Positions 38,901-63,700 of a stretch of DNA of 64,000 nt are shown here, piece after piece. A program made the translations under genes and the position numbers. The notes under the pieces were generated by a model. That model had not been told where the DNA came from and searched no databases. It was given only the letters and a program-made list of their open reading frames with translations. The stretch comes from Ascidia mentula (lineage: Eukaryota; Chordata; Ascidiacea; Phlebobranchia; Ascidiidae): assembly GCA_947561715.1 (NCBI GenBank), contig OX387202.1:19977001-20041000 (forward strand). Direction: 5' to 3'. The first letter of the stretch is position 1. Every line of letters starts with the position of its first letter.

Positions 38901-41604
38901 GGGCGATGTTGACAGAGCGATTGAACCAAACACTTTCCTCGCTGATATCGTTGCAAAGTTCGAACAGTAAGTTGCCGTTCGAACTTTTTTACTTGATTTG
39001 AGAAGTCTAGTTACAAATTCGTTGCAAGTAATTGGTCACACAGCTCAAAGAAGAAAATAAAAATATTATCGTACAAAAGTAGATTTTCGCATCATGTAAT
39101 TTAACCCTTTCTCATGTAACGCGAAACATTCGAATTTAAACAGAACAAACTCGGAATCACAAACGAATCCGGATAGTGGCGGTAAGGATTCGGAATGGGT
39201 ATTCTACTTCAAACTTTACTGTGTGTTCGATCCGATTGATGCACGGGAAGACTCAATCGAATATCACTTCGTTTACGAAGACGTGAGTCGGGAGTTTCTC
39301 TGTTTCCATTCAGTGATTTTAGTTTTTTTGATTGAAAACTTGCCTCGGTTGATTCTGTCGTCATGGTAACCTGGCATCCAACGCGGATTTCACGAAGCCG
39401 TAGAATTCCTTACATGAGCTACTGGACATCTTAAATCGTCTGGGTTCCTTCTCAACTCAAATAACTTTGGCGAAAAAATTTCGGGAAACACTGACCTTGA
39501 GTGCTTGACTTAAAATAAATATTTACTCATTTTTGTATTTTGTATTTTCTAAACGCAGGAGTTTCCAATGCAGAAAATAAATTTCATACAACCTCTAGCT
39601 TTCTTAAAAACATTAACTCAGAACTTCCCTAATGTTGCAGGTCCACGAACAAGTGATACAGGGACTTTACCCTCTATCTGATGACGCATTGAAAGATATC
39701 GCAGCTTTAAGGTTGCAATTCGCTGAAGGAAATTACCATCAAATCAATATTGAGTAAGTTTATTTAAGTGGAGCCGAAACTTTATCTTCATTGCTTCGTT
39801 CCGTTTAACCAACAAAAAGCATAAAAATATAAAACTGCCAATGGATTTTCAAGACTTCTTTTGCGAATATAAAACATGGATTTCATTTTCCAGTGCTGAC
39901 ATTGGCAAATATTATCCAATCAACAAGTTGATGGCCGCTTACGAGATCACAAACGAAAACGAAGACTTCTACTTCAAACGAACCGATTCTTTCTCGAATG
40001 AATTAAATGCAAACTCAATGCCAGCCAAGAAACGTTCTGTGAGTAAAGGTTTTTATTCGGTCTCAATTTGATTTTTTCGATAATTAAGACGTTCTCATAA
40101 ATTACGTAAAATTTCAAACTCGCCACGTAGATCTCCCCCTCTTCGAACACATCCTTTCATACCATGTTAGTTATCCGTTCCCATGGGGCCTGACTCGATA
40201 AACTTGTGGTTTCATCGGTGCCCATGCCATTTTATTCCGCATATTTATTGTTCACACGCGTTCAAGTCGTTTTTGTTCAAAAGAAAATTGAGTTATATTT
40301 GGACGTTGGCATCAACCGCGCATGAATCGTATTCCACAACTAATCGTCATTCTTTAAATCAGCTCGTATATTGATAGTTAGTAAAACAACAAAGGATTTT
40401 AATTTGTGGACGGAGCGAATAGAGGCCGAAACGTTAAAATTGAACAAATCGTTTTTGTCAACGAAGAGTTTCGTCAGATTTTAATTCTTTCAGGGGTCGA
40501 GTCTTTTTAACACGTTCCGGAAGAGAGGGATGAAGAAGGTGAAGGAGGAAGGTGAGAGCGGTGAGATGAAGAGGACTCTCTTCCTGGAGGAACTACAGGA
40601 TGTCAAATCCAACGTCCTGGATAGATGGAGGAGATTGAGAGGAATGCCGCAAGAAGACGCCGTGGTCAGTATCACAATAATCTCACTAAACAATAAGACT
40701 GGAGTTTTGTGTTATTGGATGTCGGTACATCTCTGCCCGTGGTTGATATTTATTGGCATTGTATTTGGGTGCTTGATGTTTAAATATTATTCGCATAATT
40801 TTATGTTCAGCATATTTCGCGTTCTCTTCATTCCGTCTAATTCATTTTATCTCAACAATTTGTTTCAGGCTGAATATGTTAACCTTGCACGTCGGTGGCC
40901 CGGATACGGATCCTACTTGTTTAAAGTTGAAAATCACGACGCGCAGTTCGGTCAAACCCTTCTCACTCTGGCGATATCGGCGCAGGGAGCAACTGTGTTC
41001 AAACGAGGTCACTCACAGTCCCTAGATCATTTCTCATATGAAAAGTAAGTTTGATCGAACACAATGGTTCGTTTTCAACGCGAGAAGACACGAAACTTGT
41101 TGGAGTTATTGGCTCTTAACGTTTCTGCTTATCGGTCTTATGAATATAATGCAGTTTATTTTACGAAACATAAACTTACCATTACCATAGTAGTGGGGTA
41201 ACGTGGAGTCCATATTTCCCTGCAGTTTATTTGGCGTCAGAAAACAAAATTGTTGGTAAACTACGGCCCAAATGTTTGATTCGGTCAAATGCCCACTTAC
41301 AAATAAAGTTTTCAAATAGAGTCTCGGGTTTGCTGCGGCCGGTTTCGAATTCGGCTCTGACGTTTGAAAAGTCTCAGAACCACTGTTCCAAACAATTAAA
41401 CAAGATTTTGCAGCTACATTCCTTGAGTTGAACATGTTATTGTGTCTTCCTCTCAGGATCCAGTCTTTCGGAGCGGGATCTGCGAATGTTTTCAGACTTC
41501 AGACCGAGTCAAGAGGGGACATTTCCTTCACCGCAGAACAAGTTAACGAGATTGTGAAACTCATGCGAGCTTACGTCACCGCCCTCTTCCGCCGAAAGCA
41601 TTGA
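18654..41604 (+). CDS. MYO10: Myosin X (MYO10-like), copy B, nearly complete
   Basis: Forty-five exons join in phase to 2026 codons and a stop at 41602-41604; human MYO10 is about 2058 residues, so only some 50-60 N-terminal residues are missing. Motor exons before the duplicated block are 18654-18809, 20201-20388, 22120-22206, 22578-22753, 23431-23444, 23796-23880, 24061-24164, 25525-25654 and 26838-26956. From 27426 on every exon has its counterpart in copy A. I found no exon resembling the N-terminal SH3-like start (consensus around G-x-x-V-W) between 16165 and 18653, and no clear promoter. The first listed exon begins in phase 0 after a TTTTAG acceptor. No frame breaks were seen, so this copy looks functional. 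Copy A is its near-identical tandem neighbour upstream. Confidence 0.95.
24165..25524. other. Large intron of MYO10 copy B
   Basis: No exon or element recognised; AT-rich, with a few TGACGTCA-like motifs. Confidence 0.6.
27426..31026 (+). CDS. MYO10: MYO10 copy B: C-terminal motor half and IQ lever (11 exons)
   Basis: Exons are 27426-27572, 27986-28086, 28550-28709, 28838-28906, 29049-29131, 29191-29296, 29359-29439, 29677-29801, 30013-30124, 30330-30491 and 30829-31026. The encoded protein matches copy A exon for exon, with switch II (DIFGFENF), the SH1 region and four IQ-like motifs. Most differences from copy A lie in introns, and they are few, so the two copies are recent or are being homogenised. 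Confidence 0.95.
28317..28527 (-). repeat. tRNA-derived SINE-like relic (copy B)
   Basis: Copy of the relic in the matching intron of copy A, with the same A-box-like and B-box-like sites. Confidence 0.5.
31349..34158 (+). CDS. MYO10: MYO10 copy B: charged helix, coiled coil and acidic linker (8 exons)
   Basis: Exons are 31349-31426, 31677-31748, 32020-32157, 32353-32565, 32711-32809, 33250-33327, 33728-33806 and 34019-34158. Residue differences from copy A are Gln to Arg near the end of the second exon, Phe to Leu at the end of the fourth (ESLALEV) and Glu to Lys in the seventh (YEAKDIK). Frame is intact. The donor after 33806 is GTACGT. Confidence 0.9.
34506..37847 (+). CDS. MYO10: MYO10 copy B: PH1/PH2/PH3 and MyTH4 (9 exons)
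   Basis: Exons are 34506-34675, 34816-35019, 35129-35262, 35462-35592, 35832-36035, 36395-36562, 36856-37035, 37231-37350 and 37621-37847. The order PH1N, PH2, PH1C, PH3, MyTH4 is the same as in copy A. The exon at 35832 has Ala in place of Gly at its first codon. The intron between 34675 and 34816 is 25 bp shorter than in copy A because it has two rather than three units of a 25-bp repeat. Confidence 0.95.
34752..34801. repeat. 25-bp intronic repeat, two units (copy B)
   Basis: Same repeat and position as in copy A, one unit fewer. Confidence 0.95.
38361..41604 (+). CDS. MYO10: MYO10 copy B: FERM domain and stop (8 exons)
   Basis: Exons are 38361-38574, 38830-38966, 39144-39282, 39641-39753, 39894-40038, 40494-40664, 40869-41044 and 41457-41604. 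The sequence is near identical to copy A, including the GC donor after 38574 and the C-terminal RRKH. The known cargo-binding role of the family applies. The gene ends here; the homologous downstream sequence runs on to 43202. Confidence 0.93.
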
Positions 41605-43202
41605 AAGTTGACACCGAGCACTTTTATTGCGTTCAGATTTTAACGAAACTTTAGCATTTGTCGTTCTAGCCACAAACTTGAATGTTAAGATCAGGGGTTT
41701 TCCACAGGGTCACCATATGGACCACAGCGATCTATATCAATGGCTTCCACATTACCACACAATATTACCTTCGCCGATGCATGTTTTTGTGACATTACTC
41801 AGCAAAAACTTTCGTCGGTTGGGAGGATCCACAGAATTAACCAGGGTGTCGTTGGACCCGAACAAGCTCGCGAGTTGTTCCAAGTCTTTCACGTCCCAAT
41901 AAGGTTTATTTGCAGGATCATGTATCTTATAGTTTCGGCATATACGCTTACACCCACTCTCAATACTCCGCTTCAGTGTTTAAACCTTGCAGTGACGATT
42001 TTCATTTGTTTTGCCACTTTCACATGTTTTTTTCGCTAGTCATATTCTTTCTTGTCCTGAAGCACTTGGTGATCTTTTCTGTCTATTTTGTTTTCGGGAA
42101 ACCAAATTCCATAACCATAGAAATCACAACCAGTGATAAAGTTGTCAGTCCCACTCATGGCATTTTAACTTGTGATTTGTAATTTCAATATTATTTCACA
42201 ATTATTTCGCCCCAATCATGACCCACACCCAAAACATGTGTGTCTGCTTAATTTTAACATCTAAATAACGTCATCAATACGACGACGTCACCACGTAACA
42301 TGAAATATTCCAACCGCTTTCGTACCTATTGTTGTTAACTCTTTTATCCTTAGACTGCCTATCTTTTAACATTGTTATCTGTCTAATATTATTTATTGTA
42401 CATTTGCATCAATTTACTGCTTCTTCGATTTGGTTGTTTTATAAACACAGTTCCTTGTATGTCTGCGGCAAGCCAGTTGAGGCCTGTGATGTCACAATTG
42501 CTTATTGTTACGTTCCAATTACTGCTATTGTTTCACTGTCGCTCGGTTTTGAAAAAGAAACAAACCCTGAATTGGGATCGAAAAGAAATTCGTATTTTGA
42601 GATCTTGTCGGAAAATTCTGGTTTTTAACATGGCCTGAAACTGACATCATGATCCTTGGTGTTTGGTGACTGGAAATTCTATTTATCGAGTAATTTATTT
42701 CGGGTTCAGGAATCAATTCTACAAAACTTCACTCTCTCCATGCCATCTACGTTCTGCCATGGAATGCAACCGGCAGACGCATCAGACGCGGCTGAGTCCT
42801 CCACCAACTGCTAAGTTTGGTTATTACACAAGAGTGTATAAGGTCTAACCTTGGGAGGTGACAAGAAAATGATTTGTAAAGGAAAGTCAAAGCTAGTATG
42901 CTACTCATGCCGAAGTAAATGTTTCAAACACCACTGTGTTCATCATTAGTGACAAGCAAGAATGAGTTGCAGCAAGGTGTGCGCAGAGGTAGGCAGGTAA
43001 CTGAACAGACAAAAACAACGACACAAATGAAACACGTGACAGACGCCACTCGAAGGCCCACGGCCGTGACGTCATCATTTGGGCTGCAATGAGGACCTGT
43101 GTGTTGACAAGAAACCTTGCTACACAATTTACCCTCACATAAAACCTTTCCCATAAGTCGGTGAAATTGCGCCGCGATATCCGCGCATTTCTGTAAATAT
43201 TT

Positions 43203-43980: not shown

Positions 43981-46900
43981 TTACTCGCATTTCACTTTCA
44001 TCTTAGAACTCATTATTCCGCTCCATGAGTATTTCCATCCCAACCAACTCATAGTGTTGCTATTAGTAGCAGTTCTCGACCACGGACCATTGAGTTTGGC
44101 ATGTGAACAACTACGATGCCACCAAGCTCCACCATGAACCACAGCACAATTACCTCCTGACCACCTGCAATTATAATTATGTCGGTTGTCAACAACTCTG
44201 TGTTACAACTTATTTAAACTCAGTTAAAACTTGTGTTTAACTAAAACGTTAACGCAACCCCCTGTTTCAGAGCAATTGATTTTTACAATTGTTGATTTAG
44301 GGTAGGCGGTTAACTTTGTCAACGAAAATCAACTATTTGAGGAAATGCATTTCATCTTTATTAGAACAACTCGATTTACTTCGTTAGTAAAACAGAAATA
44401 TAATCAGACACGTTGTATCATTATTACTCACCTATCATTGTCTCTGTTGGGTGTTGTAAATCTCACCCCGTTATCATATTTCATGGAATCTCCTATATTC
44501 CCCGAATATCCGGATATAGTAATTGTGTAAGAACTTCCTTCATCGCCAATGCTGAAAGTACTGAAAACAACAATGTCATAATGTTTAATTTAATGCAAAG
44601 TAATTTAAATAACAACGGATAATTTGTTGTTTTAAATCAATCCGCTTACATTGGTTTGTTGCTCATGGAAATGATTGTTGAACATAAAACCCTTTATGAC
44701 GTAATAAACGACATGTGTCATACATTGTGTTGCGTGGGATAATTATTTGTCAACTAAGCAATAAACACAGAGTGGGATTAGAAGTTTTGAGAAGGAAACC
44801 CAGATATTTTTCAACTTTAAGTTCACAAACGACTGGAGGTCCATTTTTAAGCAACCTGAAACCTGTTCCATTTAAATAAGATGTCAATCAAGCATACGAT
44901 GGTGACATTGCAAGATGTATTAGGAATATCTTACAGGAGAAGCAAAAGTTAGATGAGTTTTTGCCGATACTATTCTGTAACCCGCATTTAACTATGTTGT
45001 TTGTGACAGAGTTTTTTAATATTTCCGAACCTACGTCACTGGCAGGGGACGTGTGCCTCGGTTAAACGTTCGGCGATTACAAAGAGGTAAGTGTATAACA
45101 CACAGTGAATACAGATCATTATATTTCTTTTCCGACTACTTTTGTGTATTTCGGTGCCGACTAATTATCCACCTACAACCCTAAAATTTCCCACCGGATA
45201 AGAACCACTGGCCTAAGGAATTAACTCTGCAGGCCAATGCACCCATTTTCTTGCATAGAGACCCAACAATAGCCAATCAACCACGCAACGACCAGCAGCT
45301 AACCCAGGGGTGGGCAAAGAGAACACAGAGTGTTTACACTATACAACTTATACACTGACAATCAAGTTGTGTCAGCGTCTTACACGTCGCGATTACGGGA
45401 TTTTTGTTGCCTCATTCAAAACATTGGGAGCCGAGCATGTTGGGCAGAAAATCGAAATTTCAAACACTGGATTATGCATGGTTGTTAGATGGAAAATATA
45501 ATAACCATTTGATCCCATATATCGATGTGGGACACAGCACTAATATTCACTGAATTGCTGCCATCAATTGTCAAACGGTTTGGTCGTGGTTAATTTCGCT
45601 TGAACTGACTTCCAGATGCCTACGTTTCGGAAGATTTGGAATCAAGGGAAAGAAAATTTTCTGCAGCCACATTCTCTAAGCGCAAAAAGGTGGCGTTCGA
45701 CCCAATCCGAGCCCCACTGAGCTCGGTCCCGGCAATCCGCGACCAAGCGATCGCGCAAACCTCAAGAGCGTTGATGTGGGGTCGTTACGAGTTGATTACC
45801 ATCCCTATGTTTGTGCGGTATCTAAACTTTTTGTTTCATAATTATTCCGAACTGAGTAAATGCATTGAAACACAGCAAGAATATTCTGTGTTGCTTCAAA
45901 CTTAAATACCGAATTTTGGGAATCTGACGTAATAAGGGGGGTATTTCCCTAATGTCTTTTAAGATTTTGTTAAGTATGACGACCTGGCAGCATCGGGTAA
46001 ATTATCGTTGAAACAATGGCATTAAATTGAAAACGTTAAATTCGTTATAGTCTTACCTATACTCGGCAAAACCATGACCTCCGGAAAAATCCTGAAGGTC
46101 AACACGAAGATGACATCTAGTGGACGCACTGGTGATTTGATGCAGTTTTTCCAAACCTGATCAAATTTGTTGGTTGTAATAATATTGCTGAAAACATTGG
46201 AATTTAAATTGGATTAACTGACACTGTTACATAGCTTGCTTGAAACGTGTTGTTTGGTTCTCTTGTATATAAACTGGGTGTGTACAAGTTATAACAATGT
46301 GTTCAGTAAAACAAACCTGGAACTCCTGTTGCTGCCAGGCATATTGCAATTTAAAATGTACCGCTCTTCTGGCATAAAATATACGTGCTGTATTTTACGA
46401 CGTTTCGTCTGCCATTCAGCGAGACCTCATCAGGTATTGATATCGCAATTTCAAAGTAAACTGCACTAAAACATTCAGGGGCACACAAAAAAAAAGACAG
46501 GTTGGCACCGCTTGTCAGATCATGTGACAGAGGCAAAACACGAAACTCTGCGGGAGGCGAAACAGTTACAACAAATTGTTATAAACTGCCGGAAAGTAAA
46601 CACATTGTTCTTTGTCGTTGACGCATCCGCTGTTTTTGTGAACGTGAAGCGATTCAAGAAAGAGCCGCTTGGTTTGGTCCAACTCCTTTTCCAGAACTTG
46701 GAAAGGGCTTTATCGAAGGCAACTTCGTGTCGCAATGTCACCGCATGCTTGGCCAACGCAGTCTTGCTGGCATCTTTCGATGCGACATCACGGCGATGCT
46801 CTTTCAGTCGCGTCTTAAAGGCCCTTCCGGTTTCGCCGATGTAAATACCATCGCAATATTTGCATGGTATTAAACAGACCATTCCCTTTGGCTCGGAAGC

Positions 46901-48128
46901 TTCCGTAGCAATAGGTCATGATATTAGATTGCCAAGCGTTGTATGGGGCTTAGTGTAGACTTTTATGCCATAATCCGACATCAATCTTCCCAATGTTTCG
47001 TTAAGGCCAGGGACGTAGGAAATAACAACTGTTCCGCTAGTGGGCGTTTCATCCTTACGGGTTATTGCCAGTATATTTTGAGCGTGCCATAACAGTGGTG
47101 ATTGATAGGGATACCGGTACATTGGTGAACAATGACACCACATCAAAGGATACCATGCTGTCATGTTGCTCCACTCGTAAGCTCCGTACCTCGACTGCAA
47201 ACTCGCGGGAGTTTTTTACATGGTGCGGACTATTGCCCAACAAAAGAAGCGATATTTTAGCATTCTTGAGTCGCTTCACATTCACAAAAACAGTGGATGC
47301 GTCAACGACAAACAACAATGTGTTTACTTTCCTGCAGTTTATAACAATTTGTTGTAACTATTTCGCCTCCCGCAGTGTTTCGTGTTTTGCCTCTGCCACG
47401 TGATCTGACAAGCGGTGTCAACCTGTCCCTTTTTCTTTTTTGTGCCCCTGAATGTTTTAGTGCAGTTTACTTTGAAATTGCGGCATCAATACCTGATGAA
47501 GTCTCGCCGCATGGCAGACGAAACGTCGTAAAAATACAGCACGTATATTTTATGCCAGAAGAGCGGTACATTTTAAACTAAAACAAACTATTATTCAAAG
47601 TTTTGCAACATTTGTACTTAGTTAAGGATTGCTTTATTGGAATACAAACCAATCCAAAGTTCTGTTGATAGATCCCCAAACCCGTTCTTGTAATCCACCC
47701 AATCTCTATCGAAACTCACAGATCCATCATAACGACGCTGGAACACCTGGTAATTATAAAGTAAAACACTTGACACTGATTTTCAGTGAATTGGTCTAAA
47801 AAAGTTAGATGACCTCCATGTCAATATATGACTTTTCACTTTCATGTGTAATTTCCTGACCTTTATAAACAACACAATCCCGGGCGTATGGCTAAGTATT
47901 GTAATGTGAAATCGTAAATTACATGGCGTGCATAATCACCTCGCTTACCCAACATAGCGCTGGTGCCAGGGATTGCCCACCCCTGTGTTAGTGATATTTA
48001 CCACAGTATGAATACCTGCCATCCATCTTCACAGTAAACTTCTTCTCCCGATCTGAGATGTTGGCGACCTTTAATATCTGAAGTTTTACAGGAGCCCGGT
48101 GGAAGAGAATCTATGAGATTCTGGAGAT
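43981..48128 (-). CDS. Fibrinogen-related domain exons (5 exons)
   Basis: Exons in order are 48016-48128 ([19 protein letters not shown]: first disulfide pair), 47650-47746 ([32 protein letters not shown]), 46057-46156 ([18 protein letters not shown]), 44432-44560 ([25 protein letters not shown] calcium-site region) and 43981-44164 ([23 protein letters not shown], then MKVKCE and stop). All hallmark elements of a fibrinogen C-terminal globe are present with the four usual cysteines. Phases at the borders are 0, 1, 2 and 2, all consistent. The acceptor of the last exon is placed at 44164; a closer one at 44156 would break phase. Confidence 0.9.
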
Positions 48129-51100
48129 CTGCAGACGGGTAAAACTCATCAGATTGGCAGAAGTATTGAGTTAAACTCATTCACACGCAAGTATGCGGTG
48201 AAAACCCCACAATATTTGCACGACCTGCATTATGACCAGAATATACCGGTGCCAGATGGAACCCTCTCTGATTCGCACGTGATGACGTATATGTTGGGTA
48301 TGCCAATACCTTTGCCCGTAACTCAAGTCATGACTCGCTTTTGCCCCTAGTGGTGTAGATATCTCACCAACCTACACCACTAGGGGCAGAAGCGAGTAAT
48401 GACGTGACTTACGGGCAAAGGTTTTCAGAATTTGACACATATGTGAGATTTATATTTAAATAAAACCAAACTCAACTGTTGGAAGTGTTACTCAGTTGAC
48501 CTTGCAGTTGATCCACTCTGTTCGACAACTCTGTGAATAAAATGTTCGATGTGTGTGTGGGCGTTGGATGTTAAGTGCATGAACTTAACTGTTAGATGTG
48601 CGGTTCTGCTCACTCTGCATTTGATCCACTCTGTTCGACAACTCTGTGAATAAAATGTTAGATGTGTGAGTGGACATTGAATGTTAACTGCATGAACTTA
48701 ACTGTTAGATGTGCGGTTCTGCTCACTCTGCAGTTGATCCACTCTGTTCGACAATTCTGTGAATAAAATGTTAGATGTGTGAGTGGACATTGAATGTTAA
48801 CTGCATGAACTTAACTGTTAGATGTGCGGTTCTGCTCACTCTGCAGTTGATCCACTCTGTTCGACAACTCTGTGAATAAAATGTTAGATGTGTGAGTGGA
48901 CATTGAATGTTAACTGCATGAACTTAACTGTTAGATGTGCGGTTCTGCTCACTCTGCAGTTGATCCACTCTGTTCGACAACTCTGTGAATAAAATGTTAG
49001 ATGTGTGAGTGGACATTGAATGTTAACTGCATGAACTTAACTGTTAGATGTGCGGTTCTGCTCACTCTGCAGTTGATCCACTCTGTTCGACAACTCTGTG
49101 AATAAAATGTTAGATGTGTGAGTGGACATTGAATGTTAAGTGCATGAACTTAACTGTTAGATGTGCGGTTCTGCTCACTCTGCAGTTGATCCACTCTGTT
49201 CGACAACTCTGTGAATAAAATGTTCCATGTGTGAGTGGGCATTGAATGTTAAGTGCATGAACTTAACTGTTAGATGTGCGGTTCTGCTCACTCTGCAGTT
49301 GATCCACTCTGTTCGACAACTCTGTGAATAAAATGTTAGATGTGTGAGTGGACATTGAATGTTAACTGCATGAACTTAACTGTTAGATGTGCGGTTCTGC
49401 TCACTCTGCAGTTGATCCACTCTGTTCGACAACTCTGTGAATAAAATGTTCCATGTGTGAGTGGGCATTGAATGTTAAGTGCATGAACTTAACTGTTAGA
49501 TGTGTGGTTCTGCTCACTCTGCAGTTGATCCACTCTGTTCGACAACTCTGTGAATAAAATGTTAGATGTGTGAGTGGACATTGAATGTTAACTGCATGAA
49601 CTTAACTGTTAGATGTGCGGTTCTGCTCACTCTGCAGTTGATCCACTCTGTTCGACAACTCTGTGAATAAAATGTTAGATGTGTGAGTGGACATTGAATG
49701 TTAACTGCATGAACTTAACTGTTAGATGTGCGGTTCTGCTCACTCTGCAGTTGATTCACTCTGTTCGACAACTCTGTGAATAAAATGTTAGATGTGTGAA
49801 TGGACATTGAATGTTAACTGCATGAACTTAACTGTTAGATGTGCGGTTCTGCTCACTCTGCAGTTGATCCACTCTGTTCGACAACTCTGTGAATAAAATG
49901 TTAGATGTGTGAGTGGACATTGAATGTTAACTGCATGAATTTAACTGTTAGATGTGCTGTTCTGCTCATTCTGCAGTTGATCCACTCTGTTCGACAACTC
50001 TGTGAATAAAATGTTCCATGTGTGAGTGGACATTGAATGTTAAGTACATGAACTTAACTGTTAGATGTGCGGTTCTGCTCACTCTGCAGTTGATCCACTC
50101 TGTTCGACAACTCTGTGAATAAAATGTTAGATGTGTGAGTGGACATTGAATGTTAAGTGCCTGAACTTAACTGTTAGATGTGCGGTTCTGCTCACTCTGC
50201 AGTTGATCCACTCTGTTCGACAACTCTGTGAATAAAATGTTAGATGTGTGAGTGGACATTGAATGTTAACTGCATGAACTTAACTGTTAGATGTGCGGTT
50301 CTGCTCACTCTGCAGTTGATCCACTCTGTTCGACAACTCTGTGAATAAAATGTTAGATGTGTGAGTGGACATTGAATGTTAACTGCATGAACTTAACTGT
50401 TAGATGTGCGGTTCTGCTCACTCTGCAGTTGATCCACTCTGTTCGACAACTCTGTGAATAAAATGTTAGATGTGTGAGTGGACATTGAATGTTAACTGCA
50501 TGAACTTAACTGTTAGATGTGCGGTTCTGCTCACTCTGCAGTTGATCCACTCTGTTCGACAACTCTGTGAATAAAATGTTAGATGTGTGAGTGGACATTG
50601 AATGTTAACTGCATGAACTTAACTGTTAGATGTGCGGTTCTGCTCACTCTGCAGTTGATCCACTCTGTTCGACAACTCTGTGAATAAAATGTTAGATGTG
50701 TGAGTGGACATTGAATGTTAACTGCATGAACTTGACTGTTAGATGTGCGGTTCTGCTCACTCTGCAGTTGATCCACTCTGTTCGACAACTCTGTGAATAA
50801 AATGTTCCATGTGTGAGTGGACATTGAATGTTAAGTACATGAACTTAACTGTTAGATGTGCGGTTCTGCTCACTCTGCAGTTGATCCACTCTGTTCGACA
50901 ACTCTGTGAATAAAATGTTAGATGTGTGAGTGGACATTGAATTTTAAGTGCATGAACTTAACTGTTAGATGTGCGGTTCTGCTCACTCTGCAGTTGATCC
51001 ACTCTGTTCGACAACTCTGTGAATAAAATGTTAGATGTGTGAGTGGACATTGAATGTTAACTGCATGAATTTAACTGTTAGATGTGCTGTTCTGCTCATT

Positions 51101-52845
51101 CTGCAGTTGATCCACTCTGTTCGACAACTCTGTGAATAAAATGTTCCATGTGTGAGTGGACATTGAATGTTAAGTACATGAACTTAACTGTTAGATGTGC
51201 GGTTCTGCTCACTCTGCAGTTGATCCACTCTGTTCGACAACTCTGTGAATAAAATGTTAGATGTGTGAGTGGACATTGAATGTTAACTGCATGAACTTAA
51301 CTGTTAGATGTGCGGTTCTGCTCACTCTGCAGTTGATCCACTCTGTTCGACAACTCTGTGAATAAAATGTTAGATGTGTGAGTGGACATTGAATGTTAAC
51401 TGCATGAACTTAACTGTTAGATGTGCGGTTCTGCTCACTCTGCAGTTGATCCACTCTGTTCGACAACTCTGTGAATAAAATGTTAGATGTGTGAGTGGAC
51501 ATTGAATGTTAACTGCATGAACTTGACTGTTAGATGTGCGGTTCTGCTCACTCTGCAGTTGATCCACTCTGTTCGACAACTCTGTGAATAAAATGTTAGA
51601 TGTGTGAGTGGACATTGAATGTTAACTGCATGAACTTAACTGTTAGATGTGCGGTTCTGCTCACTCTGCATTTGATCCACTCTGTTCGACAACTCTGTGA
51701 ATAAAATGTTAGATGTGTGAGTGGGCGCTGGATGTCTAGTGCATGAACTTAACTGTTAGATGTGTGGTTCTGCTCACTCTGCAGTTGATCCACTCTGTGC
51801 GCCAAAGCTGTCAACAAAACTCACGTTTACGTTGGCATGTATTCGTCAGTCAAAGAGTTTGGGGCTAAATGGTAAAAAAATCCTTTAAGTCGAAAAATCC
51901 TATGAAAAATAAACTTCAGCTTAATCCCTGACAAGTGATGCAAATCTTGACTGTGGTTGCTATATGCAATACTTACTTTGCACAAAACAAATCTCTGCCA
52001 TACATCCAGGTCAATTGTGTCGTACCACGAGGTTTGCATGGGTAAGTCAGATAACTAACAATAAGAACACAATACTTGACATAAACAAACTATTTTCAAA
52101 AAGAATTTGCTTTTTTTGTGGGTGGTACGACATGTTCGTTACGGAGGGGGTTTGAGTTTAGTCACGTGACTGGTGAGTACGCAGGTATTTACACCACTAG
52201 GGGCAGAAGGGAATCATGACGTGAGTTACGGGCAAAGGGGTTAGCATTTGTTATCTTGACACATCTGTGAGATATCAATTTATATGAATATGAAACTCAA
52301 CTGTTGGAAGTGTTACTCAGTTGACCTTGCAGTTGATTCACTCTGTTCGACAACTCTGTGAATAAAATATTCGATGAATTTACTTGAATATGATTTTATG
52401 AGAGTTCACCGTGTAGGGGATTTGTTGTACTGTTGTGTTTGTATCAAATATCTATCTGTACTGCTTGGTTTGTTAAAGCTTCCTATCCAATAATAAATTT
52501 TGTCGAAAAGTGTTTAGAGAAGAATCTTATACCTGTAACAAGTCTCATCAAATCTTCTTTGCCAGCCACAGGTCCTTGGTCTCCCTTTTCACCTCGGTGA
52601 CCTCGAGGTCCACGTGGTCCCATCTTTCCTGGTCTTCCTGTCTCTCCTCTGGCACCTTTCAAGCCGGAATGTTCTATCTCTGATCCTTGTTCTTGTCCAT
52701 CACAAATGGAAACAACTCTGCATACTTGTTGTTGTTGGTGAGTTATGACAAGATGGCCGATCAACAAAACTTCAAACAAAATCAATTTCAACATTTTCAA
52801 ACAAGCTAGACTTTGAAAATCTGTAAATAGTTGCTCAGTCATCAC
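43981..52845 (-). CDS. Secreted collagen/fibrinogen-related protein with a micro-exon stalk
   Basis: Reading the minus strand: exon 52533-52845 (signal peptide, collagen), micro-exon 52326-52355, thirty micro-exons from 51778-51807 down to 48501-48530 at a 113-bp step, then 48016-48128, 47650-47746, 46057-46156, 44432-44560 and 43981-44164 (stop at 43981-43983). Every junction is in phase and GT-AG except two array donors; using all exons gives 621 residues. The layout is 1-104 N-terminus and collagen, about 310 residues of decapeptide stalk, and about 207 residues ending in a complete fibrinogen-related domain. Ficolin-like and FREP proteins of this kind act outside the cell as lectin-type recognition molecules or egg-coat proteins; the role here is unknown. 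A Penelope-like element lies in the intron 46157-47649. I recognise the family, not the specific gene. How many micro-exons are used in real transcripts cannot be told from DNA. Confidence 0.85.
45617..45905 (+). CDS. Unrecognised plus-strand open frame inside a fibrinogen-gene intron
   Basis: After a TTCCAG acceptor-like site an open frame runs about 90 codons (with [20 protein letters not shown], then [20 protein letters not shown]). Base use looks coding for about the first 55 residues. It lies opposite the intron between 44561 and 46056. I know no family for it; it may be a single exon of a nested gene, a captured fragment or chance. Confidence 0.25.
46398..46433 (-). ncRNA. Hammerhead-ribozyme-like core in the left arm of the Penelope-like element
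   Basis: The inverted arm carries the same core on the minus strand: CTGATGA, a stem II with GTCT/AGAC kept, GAAAC and GTCGTA. The loop of stem II differs from the right arm while the pairing parts are kept. Confidence 0.5.
47493..47530 (+). ncRNA. Hammerhead-ribozyme-like core in the right arm of the Penelope-like element
   Basis: CTGATGA at 47493-47499 is followed by a stem II that pairs GTCT with AGAC and GCC with GGC, then GAAAC, then GTCGTA. This gives the A-U and C-G pairs of a two-base-pair stem III with a GTC loop and a cleavage position after GTA. Penelope-like elements are known to carry such minimal type I hammerheads. Stem I is not convincing, so activity is uncertain. Confidence 0.55.
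48308..48422. repeat. Foldback repeat with about 50-bp arms
   Basis: Arms 48308-48358 and 48372-48422 are near-perfect inverted copies (CTACACCACTAGGGGC at the inner end, CGGGCAAAGG at the outer end) around a 13-bp centre. It lies in the intron between the last stalk micro-exon and the fibrinogen exons. The right arm recurs at 52188-52240. Confidence 0.85.
48501..51807 (-). CDS. Tandem array of thirty 30-nt micro-exons
   Basis: Each 113-bp unit holds, on the minus strand, an acceptor (TTTTATTCACAG), a 30-nt exon in phase 1-1, and a donor (GTGAGC), with an 83-bp intron between exons. On the plus strand, exon starts are 48501, 48614, and every 113 bases on to 51778, with no net indel in 30 units. 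The unit encodes LSNRVDQLQ plus a junction codon, Lys in most cases (A from one exon, AG from the next). Variants are LAHRVDQLQ at 51778, Met for Leu at 48614 and 51665, and Asn for Asp at 49744. The last unit (48501) ends in G before GTCAAC and joins the fibrinogen exon. Because each exon is 30 nt and symmetrical, any subset can be skipped without losing frame. Retention of an intron would meet a stop after about 10 residues. Confidence 0.8.
52188..52375. repeat. Duplicate of the array edge (copy of 48372-48540)
   Basis: The stretch with TACACCACTAGGGGCAGAAG, then ACATCTGTGAGAT, CAACTGTTGGAAGTGTTACT and the micro-exon occurs both here and at 48372-48540, in the same orientation. The two ends of the stalk region thus share one ancestral module, with the 30-unit array between them. 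Confidence 0.8.
52326..52355 (-). CDS. Outlying stalk micro-exon
   Basis: A thirty-first 30-nt exon, 548 bp before the array in transcription order, with the same acceptor, phase and length, encoding LSNRVNQLQ. It joins the collagen exon through a Glu codon and the first array unit through an Ala codon. Its donor (G then GTCAAC) and following intron start match those of the last array unit at 48501, so these two are the outer members of the same family. Confidence 0.75.
52533..52845 (-). CDS. First exon of the fibrinogen-related gene: signal peptide and collagen triplets
   Basis: The exon encodes 104 residues and ends in phase 1 at a GTATAAG donor. Residues 20-34 are hydrophobic ([13 protein letters not shown]) and fit a signal peptide; translation may start at Met1 or Met18. 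Cys42 and Cys48 could link subunits. Residues 61-93 are eleven Gly-X-Y triplets ([20 protein letters not shown] and on), too few for a stable collagen alone but like the short collagen parts of ficolins. The last residues (KEDLMRLVT) lead into the stalk. Confidence 0.85.
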
Positions 52846-54086: not shown

Positions 54087-54493
54087 TTTTCATTGCTTCG
54101 TTCCGTTTAACCCCCCCCAAAAAAACCCAAAAACAAAAATATAAAAATGCTAATGGATCAAAAACAAAATCTTTAAATCTCGTATAAATGAGTGCAAGCA
54201 ATGAGCCACTCAGCATTTGCAGCCTGTATAAATGAGTGCAAGCAATAAACCACTCAGCATTTGCAGCCTGTATAAATGTGTGCAAACAATGAACCACTCA
54301 GCATTTGCAGCCTGTATAAATGAGTGCAAACAATGAACCACACAGCATTTGCAGCCTGTATAAATATCTTGCGAATATAAAACATGGATTCTTTTTCCAG
54401 TGCTGACATCGGCAAATATTATCCAATCAACAAGTTGATGGCCGCTTACGAGATCACAAACGAAAACGAAGATTTCTGCTTCAAACGAACCGA
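54087..54493 (+). pseudogene. Myosin X fragment D: part of one FERM exon and its intron
   Basis: Bases 54087-54160 match the intron start near 12735-12800 of copy A. After a 44-bp minisatellite, 54363-54493 match the end of that intron, its acceptor and the first 93 bases of the FERM exon (copy A 12846 on; exon part 54401-54493). The match stops in the middle of the exon, where retroelement sequence begins. It is more diverged than copies A, B and C are from each other (for example Tyr to Cys in the exon), so it is an older or faster-changing remnant. Confidence 0.85.
54181..54365. repeat. 44-bp minisatellite inside fragment D
   Basis: Four units of 44 bp (starts 54181, 54225, 54269, 54313) and a short partial one, each beginning GTATAAATG and ending CATTTGCAGCC. 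The array lies within the intron part of the myosin X fragment and is absent from copies A, B and C. Confidence 0.9.
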
Positions 54494-54495
54494 GA

Positions 54496-57330
54496 ACGTC
54501 AACGCGAAATTCAAGAACGTCGACACCAAGAACAAATGATAGCAATTCTGGGGAAGCCTCGCTCGAGTGAAGGATCGAGAGAAGGAATGGCATCAACGGT
54601 AACTCACGCCAAATTTTTCGCCTTTTGATTCGACATCAGAGCTGTGGGTTGACTACTGGTCTCACGTGGTACCCGACGATCGACTGGCAAAAGTATTTTT
54701 GACGAATCAATCTTCAGCTGTGTACGAGATGCTTTTCAATTTGGCTGCACAGGAATCGCCACCAAGAGATATCAACGAGCTCACGTTAGAAGAAATCGTC
54801 CAACATATGAAGTTTCAGTTCGACCCCAAACGTTTCATAGTCCGTGAAACAAGTTTTGGACCGACATGAAGCGCAAGCCGGGTGAAACCATTCAAGAGCT
54901 CGCTGTTCGCATTCGACAAAGCGCAGCAACTTGCGACTTTGTATCCATCACAGATTGATTGGATGAAGCTTTGCGCACTCGTTTCATCTGTTCAATTGAA
55001 AACGAAGCGGTTTTGAAAGCTCTGTTCAGGACAAAGGATGACGAATTGAGTTTTGCTCGTGCAATTGACATTGCGGTCGAAACCGAAGATGCTGCCAAAA
55101 TGGCTAAAGAAACTGTTAACGGGACGCAGCCATCGACTTCGTTGTTCAAGGTACGTGCTACAGCTAAACCGTGGGTGAAACGTAAAGTGGATTCGAGGTC
55201 GGTGCAATTACCTGAAGGGAGGAAATGTTATCGATGTGGCAAGACTTCGCATCAGGCTTCCGAATGTCGTTTCAAGAATGCAACCTGTCATTTTTGTCAC
55301 CTAACAAGACACATGGAATCCGTTTGCCGCAAAAAGATTCGACAGCGCACGTCCCATGGCATTAAAAGAATTGAGAAACTGACTTGTGTTTCCAATATTG
55401 CAGCAGCCACGCTCAAGTTGGAAGTTCCAATTTCCATGAACGATCGTTCGCTGATCATAGAACTTGATACTGCTACAGGCGGAAATTTTCTGTCAAAAGA
55501 AACATGGAAGAAGATTGGTTCTCCAAAGCTGCACAAAGCAACGTCCCAGTATCAGTCTGCAAGCAGGCACAACTTGCCGGTGATGGGCACATTTACGTCT
55601 GCTACCAGTTGTGCAGATTCCGGAAAGGTAGCTTACCTTCATTTCAACGTCTGCGACATTCAACGTCTGAATTTGGTGGGGCGGAACGGAATACAGAAAA
55701 TAGTATTTCGTTAGACAAAGTTCTGTACGGCAAGTCAAGCTTACAAGCTCGAGAGGTACTACAAGCCGTAACCGCCCAAGAACCGCAAGATATATCACTA
55801 TATGAAGAGTGTGTCAAGTTGTGCTGTGAATTTGCAGAACTGTTAAAGCCCAATCTAGGCTGTCTTCAAGATTATGAACTGGAGGTACAACTCAAGGACG
55901 ACGCAAAACCAGTTTTCTGCAAACCGCGTTCAGTTCCGTTCGCTATGCAGAGTGATTTGTCCCAGGTTTTGGATTCCGGGACAAGCAAAGGAATTTGGAC
56001 TCCAGTGAAGTTCAACGACTGGGGTACGCCAATAGTTCCGGTCCGGAAATCAATCATTCTTCGCAAAAGCCTGCTTTAAGAATTTGTGGTGATTATTCAG
56101 TGACTGTCAATTCACAATTGGAGGTTCATCGTCACCCATTGCCATTACCAGAAGATTTAATGCGAAAGTTAGGTGGTGGTTATGGCTTCACGAAGATCGA
56201 TTAGGCGGATGCGTACAATCAAATCAAGTTGGGACCAAAAAGTCGGAAGAAGCTTGCTCTGAGCACACATCGCGGAGTTTTATTGCAGAACGTATTGCCT
56301 TTTGGTATCAGTTCTGCGCCAGCTTTTTTTCAAGAAATTATGGATGATATCACAAAAGACCTACCGGGTGTTGCAGTATATCTAGATGATATATTGGTCA
56401 GTGGTTGGTCTGCCAAGGACCAACTTCACAATCTCAAACGTTTATTGTAACGGCTCCAACATAAAGGCTTACGTTGCAGGAAGGAAAAATGCAAATTTGC
56501 TCAACAGCAGGTTGAGTACCTTGGCCATGTTCTCTCCAACAAGGGCATCACGAAGGGTTCCAAAGTCGACGCTGTACAAAGGATGCCTGCTCCGCACGAT
56601 CTACCAACGCTGCGGTGTTTCCTTGGATCTGTACAATTTTATGCAAAATTTTTGCCCGCAGAATTTTCAACTGTAGCAGAACCACTCTATCGTCTCACAA
56701 AGAAAGGCATTCCTTGGAAATGGTGTCAAAAAGAAGAACGTTCTTTCAATCAGCTGGAGGAATTGCTATCCAGAGACCAGGTGTTGGTTCATTTCAATCC
56801 ATTCATTCCTGTTGATATTGCTTGTGACGCATCAAGCGTTGGAATTGGTGCTACGTAGTTTCACCGTTTTCCCGACGGCAGTGAGCGGCCAATTGCCAAT
56901 GTATCGAAAACTTTGACACAAAGCCAGAGGAATTGCAGTCAAATTCAAAAAGAGGCTTTGTCAATCGTTTACGCTCTAAAGAAGTTCTTTCAATATTTGT
57001 TTGGAAGAAGATTCATCCTGATAACGAATCATAAACCACTGATGTCTTTATTTGGTCAACAAAAGCCTACACCAGCTTTGGCAGCCAACAGGTTGGCTCG
57101 ATGGGCACTTTTCTTGAACCAATTTCAATACACCATCGAGTATAGAAAAACCAACGAACACAATAATGCTGATGTTTTAAGCCGACTTCCACAAGGCGAT
57201 GATGTCACTTTCGACGGAGAGGAAAGTGCCGATGACGTAGACATCGTTTGTGCAATCGAAACAGAAGGAATGCAAGTGCAAATGCACTCCTCAGCACTTC
57301 GAAAAGAATCTTTTGACGAAGCAGGGTATG
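54496..57330 (+). mobile_element. Ty3/Gypsy-type LTR retroelement fossil
   Basis: In order: gag-like region, two CCHC zinc knuckles near 55225-55330, an aspartic-protease-like stretch near 55460, reverse transcriptase (YLDDILVSG near 56375, with LPFGISSAPAFFQ before it) and RNase H (near 56810-57180). No integrase and no LTRs were recognised at either flank. The element is broken by several disruptions and spread over several frames. It abuts Myosin X fragment D on the left. Family assignment follows the order protease, reverse transcriptase, RNase H and the zinc knuckles. Confidence 0.8.
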
Positions 57331-57765
57331 AAGCCGTAATACATCAGTTTGGACAATATTGCTGTCCAAAACGCAATGTCACTTTTGAGAGGTACAAGTT
57401 TTTTTCTCGACATCAGCATCAAGGTGAGCCCATCGACCAATATATAATGGAATTAAATAACCTTTCTGCAAGTTGCAAGATTCGTTGATAAGAGATCGAA
57501 TTGTGTGTGGACTTTGTGATATTCCATAAAAAAGAAAATCTCACTTTGACTAAAGCTGTACAAATTTGTGTCACAAATCAAACGGTGGCAACGAAAAGTT
57601 TGCACTTGCAACCACGTGTCGAGGCTGGGCATGTTGTTGTGCGCCGGAATGCCCGTCAATTGGAGCGGCGTTACCTCAATCAAGTCGAGAGGCAAGTTCC
57701 AGAGCCTCGTGTTCATACTGTGCTCTACGTCACGTGGCAAGGCAGTGTCCAGCTGGAGGGATTTA
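57331..57765 (+). mobile_element. Second gag-like LTR-element fragment
   Basis: After the RNase H end of the first element the sequence returns to a gag-type pattern (NVTFERYKFFSRHQHQGEPI), then LTLTKAVQICVTNQ and a Cys/His-rich end. This is the pattern of a different gag family from that at 54660, so two elements seem to be joined. It is broken, and ends where copy C of myosin X begins. Confidence 0.6.
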
Positions 57766-60700
57766 ATAAACCTCGCTGTGAGATCCTGTATAGTTGGATG
57801 ATTCCGTCTTACCATGAAAAACACGTAACACTTAAAATCATAAAAGGACTGTAATAAAGTTTAATAATATGTATGTTGCCTACACAAAAAGCACTTGTTT
57901 AAACAGGATCAGTCTGGTATAACACAAGGGATATATACGTTGATCCCCTTTGTGATTTTTTGTGTAATATTACTGAACATTGACCGGCAGCTGTAGTTTC
58001 GATCCACACTTTCTATACTAGAAGTTACGTCACCTCTATTTCACTACAGACGCAGACAGGTTTGTGGGAGATTGTGGTGTACGGGAGGAAGCACACCCTC
58101 CGACTCAGCACGGCGGTAGAGGAAGACGCGAACATCTGGAGCAGTGAGATCCAGGCTATGATAGATGGACAACCTCTGATTATCACCAAAACAAAGATCC
58201 TAATGGACAAGATCAAGGTACAGAAGTGTAGAATTGAAACTGAACTTATTGCTTGGAGTAATCTGCTTTCAGGGCAACTGCCACTTAGGTAGCCAGGCGA
58301 AAAGCGTATTGCTTTGAAATTACCTGCTTAAAAAACACATCAGGAAATATTATTGCAATGATGTTGACAAAACGACTCTGCCCAAAGCTTTCATTCTTTC
58401 ACTTATATTTAGCATGTTGACCATAGTGTATGAAACTATGGCTAAAAAATTTGTGTATGTTGCAACAGCGTTCAGATGACAATGAAAAGGAGATCGACTT
58501 AATCTACAAGAGGAACCCAATCTTCAGGCAATCAAGCGAGCCTTTATGATCCCCTTTGCTATCCCTTCCATACGAACAGGTGATCCTGCAATTATTACAA
58601 CTATCCGTCCCAGAATCCAATGCTAACGCAAATTTATTAGTGCTGCAAGTATCCACGTGGTTGTCATAAAACCACGATGACGTCAATATCATCTTACCCG
58701 AACTATCTGTGACGTAACATTGCTCATATTGTTGTGTTGCTAACGAACCAAGTCGATTATTCCAAAAAAATTAAAAAATTAATAGTTTCGCTACTTAGAA
58801 AAAAAGGCATAGAAATCATAATCAACCGTTGTTCGCTCACAGGTGCCCTCTCGTGACGACCACTACACGTTGAGGGACGAGGCTGTGAGGATTTTTAACG
58901 TCCTCCTTCAAATAGAAGAACGGACTTTCCAGAACATTGAGGAGGAAGCGAAATCACTCCAGGTAAAAATTGTTTTTAAATTTTGCTTTTTGATATTTCT
59001 CGAATTCCCGCCTGTAATTGAGTTTCCTCCCCTATATATTTGCACATGTTATGACGTTTGTCAGGTAATTGTGGATCTTTCTTTGCAATGAGTGGGGAAC
59101 GATGTTCACAGATCACAATTTATATCAAAGTTTTACTTGACATCAATCAGCATTCAAAACAGACAATCAAAAAGCATTGCGACACCGTGCAGCCAACAAA
59201 CTATCTATCTGTTCGTTCCAGGCGATCATGCGAGTGTGCCACGGCTCCAAGCTATTCCAGGACGAGCTTTATCTGCAATTAATCAAACAAACCGCCATCT
59301 ACACCCTCCAACTCACCACAGACGAGCAAATGTGTAACCAGCTTCATGTGACGTCATGTCCGCATTACTGGCATCTCATAGCTTGTATGTGTTGCGCGTA
59401 CCGCCCATCACGTCCCGTGCTGTCTTACCTGAAGCTGCATCTAAAGAGGTATGACGTCACTAAGTGTGTAAATAACTTGGTTATCCAATGTAGAGTTCGC
59501 GGAACCCTTAACACAAAAGGTTTACTAAATTTTTGGGGTTCTTTGTTAAGTTAAACAATCGTTATAGGTTTCGCAGACGAAAATTTTGGGAATATCTGGT
59601 CTGAGCGCTAATTCTAAAACATCTCTAACCCCACTTTTGTTGGTAAACCAGAATTTATTGCTTGCCTCAATGCTTTGTATTCCCAGTAAATTTGAAACAA
59701 AATGCTCGTTTAATGAGAGATAAGCCAAGAAATGTCTTAAACCGTCCCGTCCACCGACGATTTTGCCGGGCCAAATGGGTGGGGCGTGCGCCACTTTGAG
59801 AAGCACTTGCTACTAAGCAGTAGTTTTGCATTACAGCGGGTCGGGTTATCTTACCTCGCGCTGTTGACTGCACACAAATGTGCCATAAGATGCCTGGGAA
59901 TCTGTACAGTAATGATTATTCGGGGATCCCTTTTCACCGTTTGTTTATTAACATCCGTTATCAGTGTACAAGAGCGATTTCCTGGTACTCTTGGTGGAGC
60001 TTATGCCGAGTTCGGTGAAAATGCGCTGAGTCAGCAGACGTCACGTCGACGTGAGATGGTTCCTTCCATTGCTGAGATTTGTGCTGTGCTGGAGATGAGG
60101 GACCTGGTCACTGTGATTAACTGCTATGGTGGCGCAACATGCGAAATCTACATCAACTCTTTCACCACTGCTGGAAAGGCAAGTAGTGTTTTGTTACAAA
60201 TTGTAATGTCGAACACTCGGAAGTATTTCTTGTATAATTTTGAATTGTATTTTCTTCTGATGATCTGGTTTTGTTGGTTGGTAGCAAACATGCTTCTTTT
60301 TCAATATTTGTTATTAAATTATGTTCTGCATTTTTATGTGTTCAGAAGCGTTTCGTTGTTTTAGTTACAAAATGTTTTTACTTTAAATTAGAGGAGTCAC
60401 TTTAGACAGTTTACGTCCAACTTTGGTGTTCAGGTTGTCCAGAAACTCCAGCATGGAATGAACGTGGAGGGGAATAAGAACACGTTCGCATTATTCGAAC
60501 ACAAGGGCGATGTTGACAGAGCGATTGAACCAAACACTTTCCTCGCTGATATCGTTGCAAAGTTCGAACAGTAAGTTGCCGTTGGAACTTTTTTACTTGA
60601 TTTGAGAAGTCTAGTTACAAATTCGTTGCAAGTAATTGGTCACACAGCTCAAAGAAGAAAATAAAAATATTATCGTACAAAAGTAGATTTTCGCAACATG

Positions 60701-63700
60701 TAATTTGACCCTTTCTCATGTAACGCGAAACATTCGAATTTAAACAGAACAAACTCGGAATCACAAACGAATCCGGATAGTGGCGGTAAGGATTCGGAAT
60801 GGGTATTCTACTTCAAACTTTACTGTGTGTTCGATCCGATTGATGCACGGGAAGACTCAATCGAATATCACTTCGTTGACGAAGACGTGAGTCGGGAGTT
60901 TCTCTGTTTCCATTCAGTGATTTTAGATTTTTTGATTGAAAACTTGCCTCGGTTGATTCTGTCGTCATGGTAACCTGGCATCCAACGCGGATTTCACGGA
61001 GCCCTAGAATTCCTTACATGAGCTACTGGACACCTTAAATCGTCTGGGTTCCTTCTCAACTCAAATAACTTTGGCGAAAAAATTTCGGGAAACACTGACC
61101 TTGAGTGCTTGACTTAATATGAATATTTTACTCATTTTTGTATTTTGTATTTTCTAAACGCAGGAGTTTCCAATGCAGGAAATAAATTTCATAAAACCTC
61201 TAGCTTTCTTAAAAACATTAACTCAGAACTTCCCTAATGTTGCAGGTCCACGAACAAGTGATACAGGGACTTTACCCACTATCTAATGACGCATTGAAAG
61301 ATATCGCAGCTTTAAGGTTGCAATTCGCTGAAGGAAATTACCATCAAATCAATATTGAGTAAGTTTGTTTAAGTGGAGCCGAAACTTTATCTTCATTGCT
61401 TCGTTCCGTTTAACCAACAAAAAGCATAAAAATATAAAAATGCCAATGGATTTTCAAGACTTCTTTTGCGAATATAAAACATGGATTTCATTTTCCAGTG
61501 CTGACATTGGCAAATATTATCCAATCAACAAGTTGATGGCCGCTTACGAGATCACAAACGAAAACGAAGACTTCTACTTCAAACGAACCGATTCTTTCTC
61601 GAATGAATTAAATGCAAACTCAATGCCAGCCAAGAAACGTTCTGTGAGTAAAGGTTTTTATTCGGTCTCAATTTGATTTTTTCGATAATTAAGACGTTCT
61701 CATAAATTACGTAAAATTTCAAACTCGCCACGTAGATCTCCCCCTCTTCGAACACATCCTTTCATACCATGCTAGTTATCCGTTCCCATGGGGGCCTGAC
61801 TCGATAAACTGTGGTTTTATCGGTGCCTGTGCCATTTTATTCCGCATATTTATTGTTCGCACGCGTTCAAGTCGTTTTTGTTCAAAAGAAAATTGAGTTA
61901 TATTTGGACGTTGGCATCAACCGCGCATGAATCGTATTCCACAACTAATCGTCATTCTTTAAATCAGCTCGTATATTGATAGTTAGTAAAACAACAAAGG
62001 ATTTTAATTTGTGGACGAAGCGAATTGAGGCCGAAACGTTAAAATTGAACAAATCGTTTTTGTCAACGAAGAGTTTCGTCAGATTTTAATTCTTTCAGGG
62101 GTCGAGTCTTTTCAACACGTTCCGGAAGAGAGGGATGAAGAAGGTGAAGGAGGAAGGTGAGAGCGGTGAGATGAAGAGGACTCTCTTCCTGGAGGAACTG
62201 CAGGATGTCAAATCAAACGTCCTGGATAGATGGAGGAGATTGAGAGGAATGCCGCAAGAAGACGCCGTGGTCAGTATCACAATAATCTCACTAAACAATA
62301 AGACTGGAGTTTTGTGTTATTGGATGTCGGGACATCTCTGCCCGTGGTTGATATTTATTGGCATTGTGTTTGGCTGCTTGATGTTTAAATATTATTCGCA
62401 TAATTTTATGTTCAGCATATTTCGCGTTCTCTTCATTCCGTCTAATTCATTTTATCTCAACAATTTGTTTCAGGCTGAATATGTTAACCTTGCACGTCGG
62501 TGGCCCGGATACGGATCCTACTTGTTTAAAGTTGAAAATCACGACGCGCAGTTCGGTCAAACCCTTCTCACTCTGACGATATCGGCGCAGGGAGCAACTG
62601 TGTTCAAACGAGGTCACTCACAGTCCCTAGATCATTTCTCATATGAAAAGTAAGTTTGATCGAACACAATGGTTCGTTTTCAACGCGGGAAGACACGAAA
62701 CTTGTTGGAGTTATTGGCTCTCAACGTTTCTGCTTATCGGTCTTATGAATATAATGCAGTTTATTTTACGAAACATAAACTTACCATAACCATAGTAGTG
62801 GGGTAACGTGAAGTCCATATTTCCCTGCAGTTTATTTGGCGTCAGAAAACAAAATTGTTGGTGAACTACGGCCCAAATGTTTGATTCGGTCAAATGCCGA
62901 CTTACAAATAAAGGTTTCAAATAGAGTTTCGGGTTTGCTGCGGCCGGTTTCGAATTCAGCTCTGACGTTTGAAAAGTCTCAGAACCACTGTTTCAAACAA
63001 TTAAACAAGATTTTGCAGCTACATTCCTTGAGTTGAACATGTTATTGTGTCTTCCTCTCAGGATCCAGTCTTTCGGAGCGGGATCTGCGAATGTTTTCAG
63101 ACTTCAGACCGAGTCAAGAGGGGACATTTCCTTCACCGCAGAACAAGTTAATGAGATTGTGAAACTCATGCGAGCTTACGTCACCGCCCTCTTCCGCCGA
63201 AAGCATTGAAAGTTGACACCGAGCACTTTTATTGCGTTCAGATTTTAACGAAACTTTAGTATTTGTCGTTCTAGCCACAAACTTGAATGTTAAAATCAGG
63301 GGTTTTCCACAGGGTCACCATATGGACCACAGCGATATATCTCAATGGGTTCCACATTACCACACAATATTACCTTCGCCGATGCATGTTTTTGTGACAT
63401 TACTAAGCAAAAACTATCGTCGGTTGGGAGGATCCACAGAGTTAACCAGGGTGTCGTTGTACCCGAACGAGCTCGCTAGTTGTTCCAAGTCTTTCACGTC
63501 CCAATAAGGTTTATTTACAGGATCATGTATCTTATAGTTTCGGCATACACGCTTACACCCACTCTCAATACTCCGCTCCAGTGTTTAAACCTTGCAGTGA
63601 CGATTTTCATTTGTTTTGCCACTTTCACATGTTTTTTACGCTAGTCATATTCTTTCTTGTCCTGAAGCACTTGGTGATCTTTTCTGTCTATTTTGTTTTC

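Follow-up and report, generated by a model that had tools for sequence, protein, structure and literature searches.

A candidate ficolin-like lectin gene family in Ascidia mentula with a predicted coiled-coil neck encoded by tandem micro-exons

A stretch of 64,000 nucleotides from the ascidian Ascidia mentula, referred to here as the window, contains a tandem repeat with a period of 113 bp between an exon that encodes a collagen-like segment and exons that encode a fibrinogen domain. The question raised by this locus is whether the repeat is a passive intronic minisatellite or a series of exons and, if it is the latter, how much protein each unit contributes. In the original prediction, the minisatellite was a series of micro-exons, symmetrical and in frame, belonging to a collagen/fibrinogen gene, and in genomic sequence this reading is upheld by the 31 minus-strand acceptors and the open gene model described below.

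Gene model and layout of the array

The features of the locus are collected in Table 1. The first coding exon has a hydrophobic start, begins with the ATG at 52794 and ends in phase 1 at the junction TTACAG/GTATAA. This phase, and the matching phase of the exon that starts at 48128 on the other side of the array, are as originally predicted. The joined frame is open in three uniform readings, giving a protein of 852 amino acids with 54-nt units, 604 amino acids with 30-nt units and 294 amino acids when all units are skipped, and the 852-residue model is open across 37 exons with GT-AG junctions. The single open frame proposed for the gene is therefore retained, but not its length of 621 codons, because the 30-nt model counted from the same ATG has 604.

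Table 1. Positions in the window of the predicted exons, individual repeat units and the neighboring palindrome
Feature	Positions	Strand	Basis or location
First coding exon: putative signal peptide (by eye), spacer, ~10 Gly-X-Y triplets	52533..52794	-	spliced model
First micro-exon, outlier unit, 54 nt, phase 1-1, acceptor 52355	52302..52355	-	splice-site scan and spliced model
30 micro-exons of 54 nt, acceptors 113 nt apart, introns 59 nt, phase 1-1	48477..51807	-	Tandem Repeats Finder and splice-site scan
Unit 2, most diverged internal unit (LAHRVDQLQ), acceptor 51807	51754..51807	-	splice-site scan
Unit 8, 30-nt donor AT instead of GT, 54-nt donor intact, acceptor 51129	51076..51129	-	
Unit 18, 30-nt donor AT instead of GT, 54-nt donor intact, acceptor 49999	49946..49999	-	
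MITE-like palindrome, arms 54 nt, 91% complementary	48305..48425	.	in intron 3' of array
Exon F1: neck end, then fibrinogen domain start	48016..48128	-	spliced model
Fibrinogen exon F2	47650..47746	-	spliced model
Fibrinogen exon F3	46057..46156	-	spliced model
Fibrinogen exon F4	44432..44560	-	spliced model
Fibrinogen exon F5, including stop codon	43981..44164	-	spliced model

A shortened protein containing 7 of the 31 units was used as the query for domain searches. The Pfam Fibrinogen_C domain is recognized with an E-value of 6e-49 (167.3 bits versus a cut-off of 22), and the Collagen domain scores 21.9 bits, under its cut-off of 27.2, with about ten Gly-X-Y triplets visible in the same query. 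Among solved structures, the nearest to the fibrinogen part are FIBCD1 (1.7e-41) and ficolin-2 (6.8e-39). Known ficolins bind sugars and MASP.

The minus strand of the window has 31 acceptors, one at 52355 and thirty between 51807 and 48530. The acceptor-to-acceptor interval is exactly 113 nt in 29 of 30 cases and 548 nt in the remaining one, and each acceptor opens a short, near-identical open segment in phase 1-1 (31/31 units). Tandem Repeats Finder reports the array at 48503-51819 with a period of 113, 29.4 copies, 97% matches and a score of 6221, far beyond chance. The diverged second unit and the outlying first unit have the properties claimed for them originally, and the final micro-exon is of the terminal type. 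A search of the window array for higher-order periodicity gave no clear shift. Gaps between the matches to TCP-1 chaperonin exons in the same genome provide a rough estimate of ~58-78 nt for introns at several places and, judged from these gaps, short introns appear to be tolerated in this genome. Downstream of the first unit, the stretch 52183-52247 also resembles an arm of the MITE-like palindrome.

Exon length and the coding signal

Each unit has two candidate donors, 24 nt apart and each leaving phase 1: AGA/GTGAGC, which would end the exon at 30 nt, and ACA/GTTAAG, which would end it at 54 nt. In terminal units, the corresponding donor sequences are GTCAAC (30 nt) and GTTGAG (54 nt). We gathered 362 units from 36 genome stretches, selecting for resemblance to the unit's first 28 nt and for a preceding AG. 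GT is present at both donors in 335 of the 362 units; it is missing at the 54-nt donor in 18, at the 30-nt donor in 9 and at both donors in none, and all 18 units that lack the 54-nt GT keep the 30-nt GT. The original claim that every unit in the window keeps the 30-nt splice site is not borne out, because units 8 and 18 have AT in place of GT (2 of 31 units), and the 54-nt GT is missing from none of the 31. Where the 54-nt GT has been lost, the replacement is AT in 14 units, TT in 3 and TA in 1, with the same AT change recurring across paralogs. Units of this kind could be skipped or could use the 30-nt donor.

Related genes were scanned in 16 of 94 loci using only the first nine codons after the AG as an anchor, with the frame and the donors left unconstrained. 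The scan recovered ten related exons in seven loci, including the mildly diverged L010, and close relatives in three (L080, L011 and L012). No micro-exon was found in six of the 16 scanned loci (L085, L086, L089, L090, L055 and L092), and extra matches at nt 1657 of L011 and L012 were rejected as chance, with scores inside the shuffle range. The 24-nt extension beyond nt 30 is open in all ten related exons. At nt 54, nine of them have GT and one has GC; at nt 30, GT is present in five of the ten.

A separate comparison covered 16 exons from nine loci. In 12 of these, intron identity to the reference does not exceed 0.49 and the extension is 0.50-1.00 identical; in the remaining four, the introns are themselves 0.57-0.94 identical to the reference, and these exons are hence uninformative. 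For nine diverged exons, preselected for an open frame and a GT at nt 54, pN/pS is 0.40 in the extension and 0.39 in the first nine codons. When the extension is read in the two other frames, the values are 1.27 (5 stops) and 0.71 (18 stops).

The pattern of hydrophobic residues provides a further comparison of the two lengths. The hydrophobic period of coiled coils is ~3.5-3.67 residues. The period in the array is 3.60 residues in the 54-nt reading and 3.335 in the 30-nt reading, and the hydrophobic residues of the 18-residue unit are spaced 4-3-4-3-4. A five-unit piece gives a total of eight matches with E no higher than 1, among them weak matches to coiled-coil chains that include mitofusin 1, keratin 1 and lamin (best E 0.00019). 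The coiled-coil neck is predicted from this pattern, with its period of 3.60, and from these weak matches.

We have taken 54 nt as the exon because of the related genes, where the extension is open and the 30-nt donor is often missing, the pN/pS values, the 3.60-residue period and the coiled-coil matches. Judged from the genomic data, the exon is most likely 54 nt (18 codons) rather than 30 nt, and the GT of the 30-nt donor probably sits within a Ser codon (AGT). The unit that was first described is thus correct in its 113-bp length, acceptor and 1-1 phase, but its 30-nt exon gives way to the better supported 54-nt one.

The 54-nt donor seems to be a poorer match than the 30-nt donor to the usual donor consensus, and the 30-nt donor, with its seemingly closer resemblance to that consensus, may be used as an alternative. 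There is some chance, although we consider it unlikely, that both donors are used and that a unit adds 18 residues, adds 10 residues or is skipped, which would generate combinatorial isoforms. This account overlaps with the 54-nt reading and would agree with the GT found at both positions in most units, with the absence of units that lack both and with the preservation of frame in all three uniform readings. However, the 30-nt donor is frequently missing in related genes, and about 0.45 units without both donors would be expected by chance, so that observing none is uninformative and joint loss was rejected as a signal.

Variation inside the arrays was analyzed in those 304 of 362 units, 154 of them distinct, that show no more than 20 mismatches to the internal consensus. 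The mean minor-allele frequency in these internal units is 0.029 for nt 1-30, 0.027 for nt 31-54 and 0.057 for nt 61-93. An excess of variants at third codon positions was sought in the 304 internal units and was not found; purifying selection on the repeats is therefore not demonstrated within arrays, and the coding frame of the extension is apparent only between diverged paralogs. The missing excess fits recent homogenization and fits a passive satellite equally well. An array that is merely an intronic minisatellite, with only the terminal unit or units spliced in, or none, would account for the missing codon-position signature and for those paralogs that have a single unit. We regard this explanation as improbable, because none of the 362 units has a stop codon within the 54 nt and the five small indels seen, in four units, are all within the intron part, although units broken in the first 28 nt or the preceding AG escape the search and limit both counts. 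Finally, it is very doubtful that the micro-exons are simply 30 nt long, encoding 10 residues and ending at the GTGAGC donor: this donor looks nearer to the usual consensus, the frame is open and the GT is found in 353 of 362 units, including all 18 without a 54-nt GT, but it is missing in 2 of 31 window units and 5 of 10 related exons, the 24 nt beyond it act as coding in diverged paralogs, and a period of 3.33 residues is ill-suited to a coiled coil, given the range stated above.

A branch-point-like CTAAC is located at nt 96-100 of the unit. In 123 of the 304 internal units, its T is changed to G (CGAAC or GGAAC). We count this variation against the favored 54-nt model; it might also grade exon inclusion.

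Unit number across the gene family

The genome was searched with three kinds of query (unit, collagen exon and fibrinogen exons), and the resulting family counts are lower bounds. Among the matches listed, family sites are mainly at 19.8-21.0 Mb of C70, the contig on which the window spans 19977001-20041000; the rest of C70, C69, C67 and C52 carry further sites. C70 accounts for 37 of the best 40 matches to the terminal unit; 34 of these are no more than 1.5 kb from a fibrinogen match, and the remaining three, which are first units, are separated from theirs by the array. We counted a gene as complete if the collagen exon is present and the last unit is of the terminal type; two diverged genes were also admitted. 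At least 28 genes are complete, including the window gene with its 31 units, and they range from 1 to 40 units. Among these, there are four genes with 1 unit, five with 2, four with 3 and two each with 4, 8 and 33; unit counts of 9, 11, 13, 14, 25, 29, 31, 32 and 40 are represented by one gene each. The 36 stretches that supplied the units consist of the 28 complete genes, 2 partial genes and 6 without a collagen exon in the examined DNA. Among the exons that could be checked for stops, all 22 F1 and all 31 F2 exons are open, as are 29 of 30 collagen exons, the exception being a short one in C69:19444159.

Two close paralogs have 32 and 33 units, of which 27 are identical, 5 have one change and one is extra. 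Two sister genes on C69 carry 3 and 40 units (tree support 95/91). These comparisons demonstrate that whole predicted exon-intron units have been gained and lost between paralogs. The pair that differs by one unit agrees with the original proposal that gain or loss of a unit keeps the frame, but the step would be 18 residues with the 54-nt exon and not the 10 first suggested. In the tree of the family, 18 of 27 branches are unresolved. L013, the gene that has diverged furthest, carries a single unit, which would fit a one-unit ancestor for the family, but it is on a long branch. In genomic sequence, short symmetrical exons thus follow one another in tandem and can be joined in a single frame in the window gene, and unit number varies between paralogs (1-40 among at least 28 genes).

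The plus strand of the window contains tandem copies of a gene that we take to be myosin-X-like, at 1445-15135, 28512-42628 and 57984-63724, the first two at a distance of ~27 kb. Pfam identifies IQ, PH and MyTH4 frames in these copies, and a frame for a myosin head is located at 20180-20482. All 14 matches to the IQ region are on C70, and 13 of them are at 19.8-21.0 Mb amid the lectin genes; the myosin-X-like and lectin genes may therefore be co-amplified. An open frame with a GIY-YIG-like motif in the F2-F3 intron (46523-46915, minus strand) looks Penelope-type by eye, and a Pfam search of it found no domain. Retroelement-like frames are present upstream of the lectin gene (54959-57488, plus strand), zinc-knuckle-like by eye and with RT_RNaseH identified by Pfam in 56859-57488 on the same strand. 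A separate 44-nt tandem repeat at 54182-54365 (4.2 copies, 95% matches) is partly within an open minus-strand frame. In the same genome, GH6 gives two matches above cut-off, with 14 control genomes that are prokaryotes and uninformative on animals; GH6 is not known from animals other than tunicates.

A predicted stalk of variable length and its precedents

We think it likely that the window gene encodes a ficolin-like secreted lectin, and that its coiled-coil neck would be the product of a 54-nt, phase 1-1 micro-exon amplified together with a 59-nt intron as a 113-bp minisatellite. The predicted order of the protein is signal peptide, short collagen stretch, neck and fibrinogen domain. If the micro-exons are spliced in and translated, each unit would add 18 residues, equivalent to five helical turns, and usually one N-glycosylation sequon, which is present in 345 of the 362 units. 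The units could then form a stiff, helical, glycosylated stalk that links the oligomerizing collagen part to the fibrinogen heads. For the window gene, this stalk would have ~559 residues and, if fully helical, a length of ~83 nm. Recombination among units, by unequal crossing over or conversion, would alter the length of the stalk and leave the protein unbroken. Such a molecule would probably serve in innate recognition or in adhesion, with a reach that varies. A more speculative version, to which we give little credence at present, is that stalk length in dozens of ficolin-like genes is set by germline copy number (1-40) plus the skipping or 10- or 18-residue use of units in each transcript; if true, the lectins displayed by different individuals and tissues would vary widely in reach and glycan density.

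The family offers an extreme and clear example of a predicted exon and its intron that evolve jointly as a minisatellite, with near-identical units in arrays of 1 to 40, and its paralogs, at least some three dozen in one genome, provide a natural experiment. Tandem-repeat instability is here tied to the predicted length of a protein rod in a family of the innate-immunity type, which makes selection, polymorphism or splicing of stalk length testable. The arrays are also a warning to gene predictors that coding exons may hide in apparent satellite DNA.

Schistosome micro-exon genes are also on record in the literature. We searched the PMC open literature, a part of all that is in print, for a description of this lectin family and found none. 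Ficolins with a collagen-like domain have been reported in ascidians, and ascidian and vertebrate ficolins have the same combination of collagen and fibrinogen domains; an exon-array neck is not mentioned in the portions of that report available to us (PMC11312191).

The original statement that no gene with such an array has been described fails, because the arrays of the chicken BG genes and of the Schistosoma mansoni polymorphic mucins (SmPoMuc) are published precedents. In the accessible portions of the BG reports, these genes of the butyrophilin family have exons of 21 nt, or sometimes 24 nt, in tandem, each with its first codon split after one base, and 13-36 such exons per gene in the B12 haplotype; the cDNAs examined contain the predicted exons, the exceptions being one exon and cases of alternative splicing or read-through (PMC4046983, PMC5938342). 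The repeats are diverged, with 57 groups among 358 exons (PMC4046983). Insofar as these portions describe them, the BG genes resemble the lectin genes in their tandem short exons, predicted coiled coil and variable number within a multigene family, but they encode the cytoplasmic tail of an Ig-V-domain receptor from a 7-residue unit with more diverged repeats, whereas the lectin arrays encode a predicted secreted lectin neck from an 18-residue unit with near-identical exon-plus-intron units. SmPoMuc genes, as far as the source text at hand describes them, contain a 27-bp exon in tandem with its flanking introns, in 1 to ~20 genomic copies, within a multigene family under concerted evolution (PMC2576457). 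They share with the lectin genes a short exon repeated together with its introns in a multigene family, but their units of ~1 kb encode 9-residue mucin repeats, in contrast to the 113-bp units and predicted coiled coil of the lectin arrays. The lectin arrays differ from both precedents in encoding a predicted lectin stalk, in their 18-residue unit, in their tight exon-intron period of 113 bp and in spanning 1-40 units among close paralogs.
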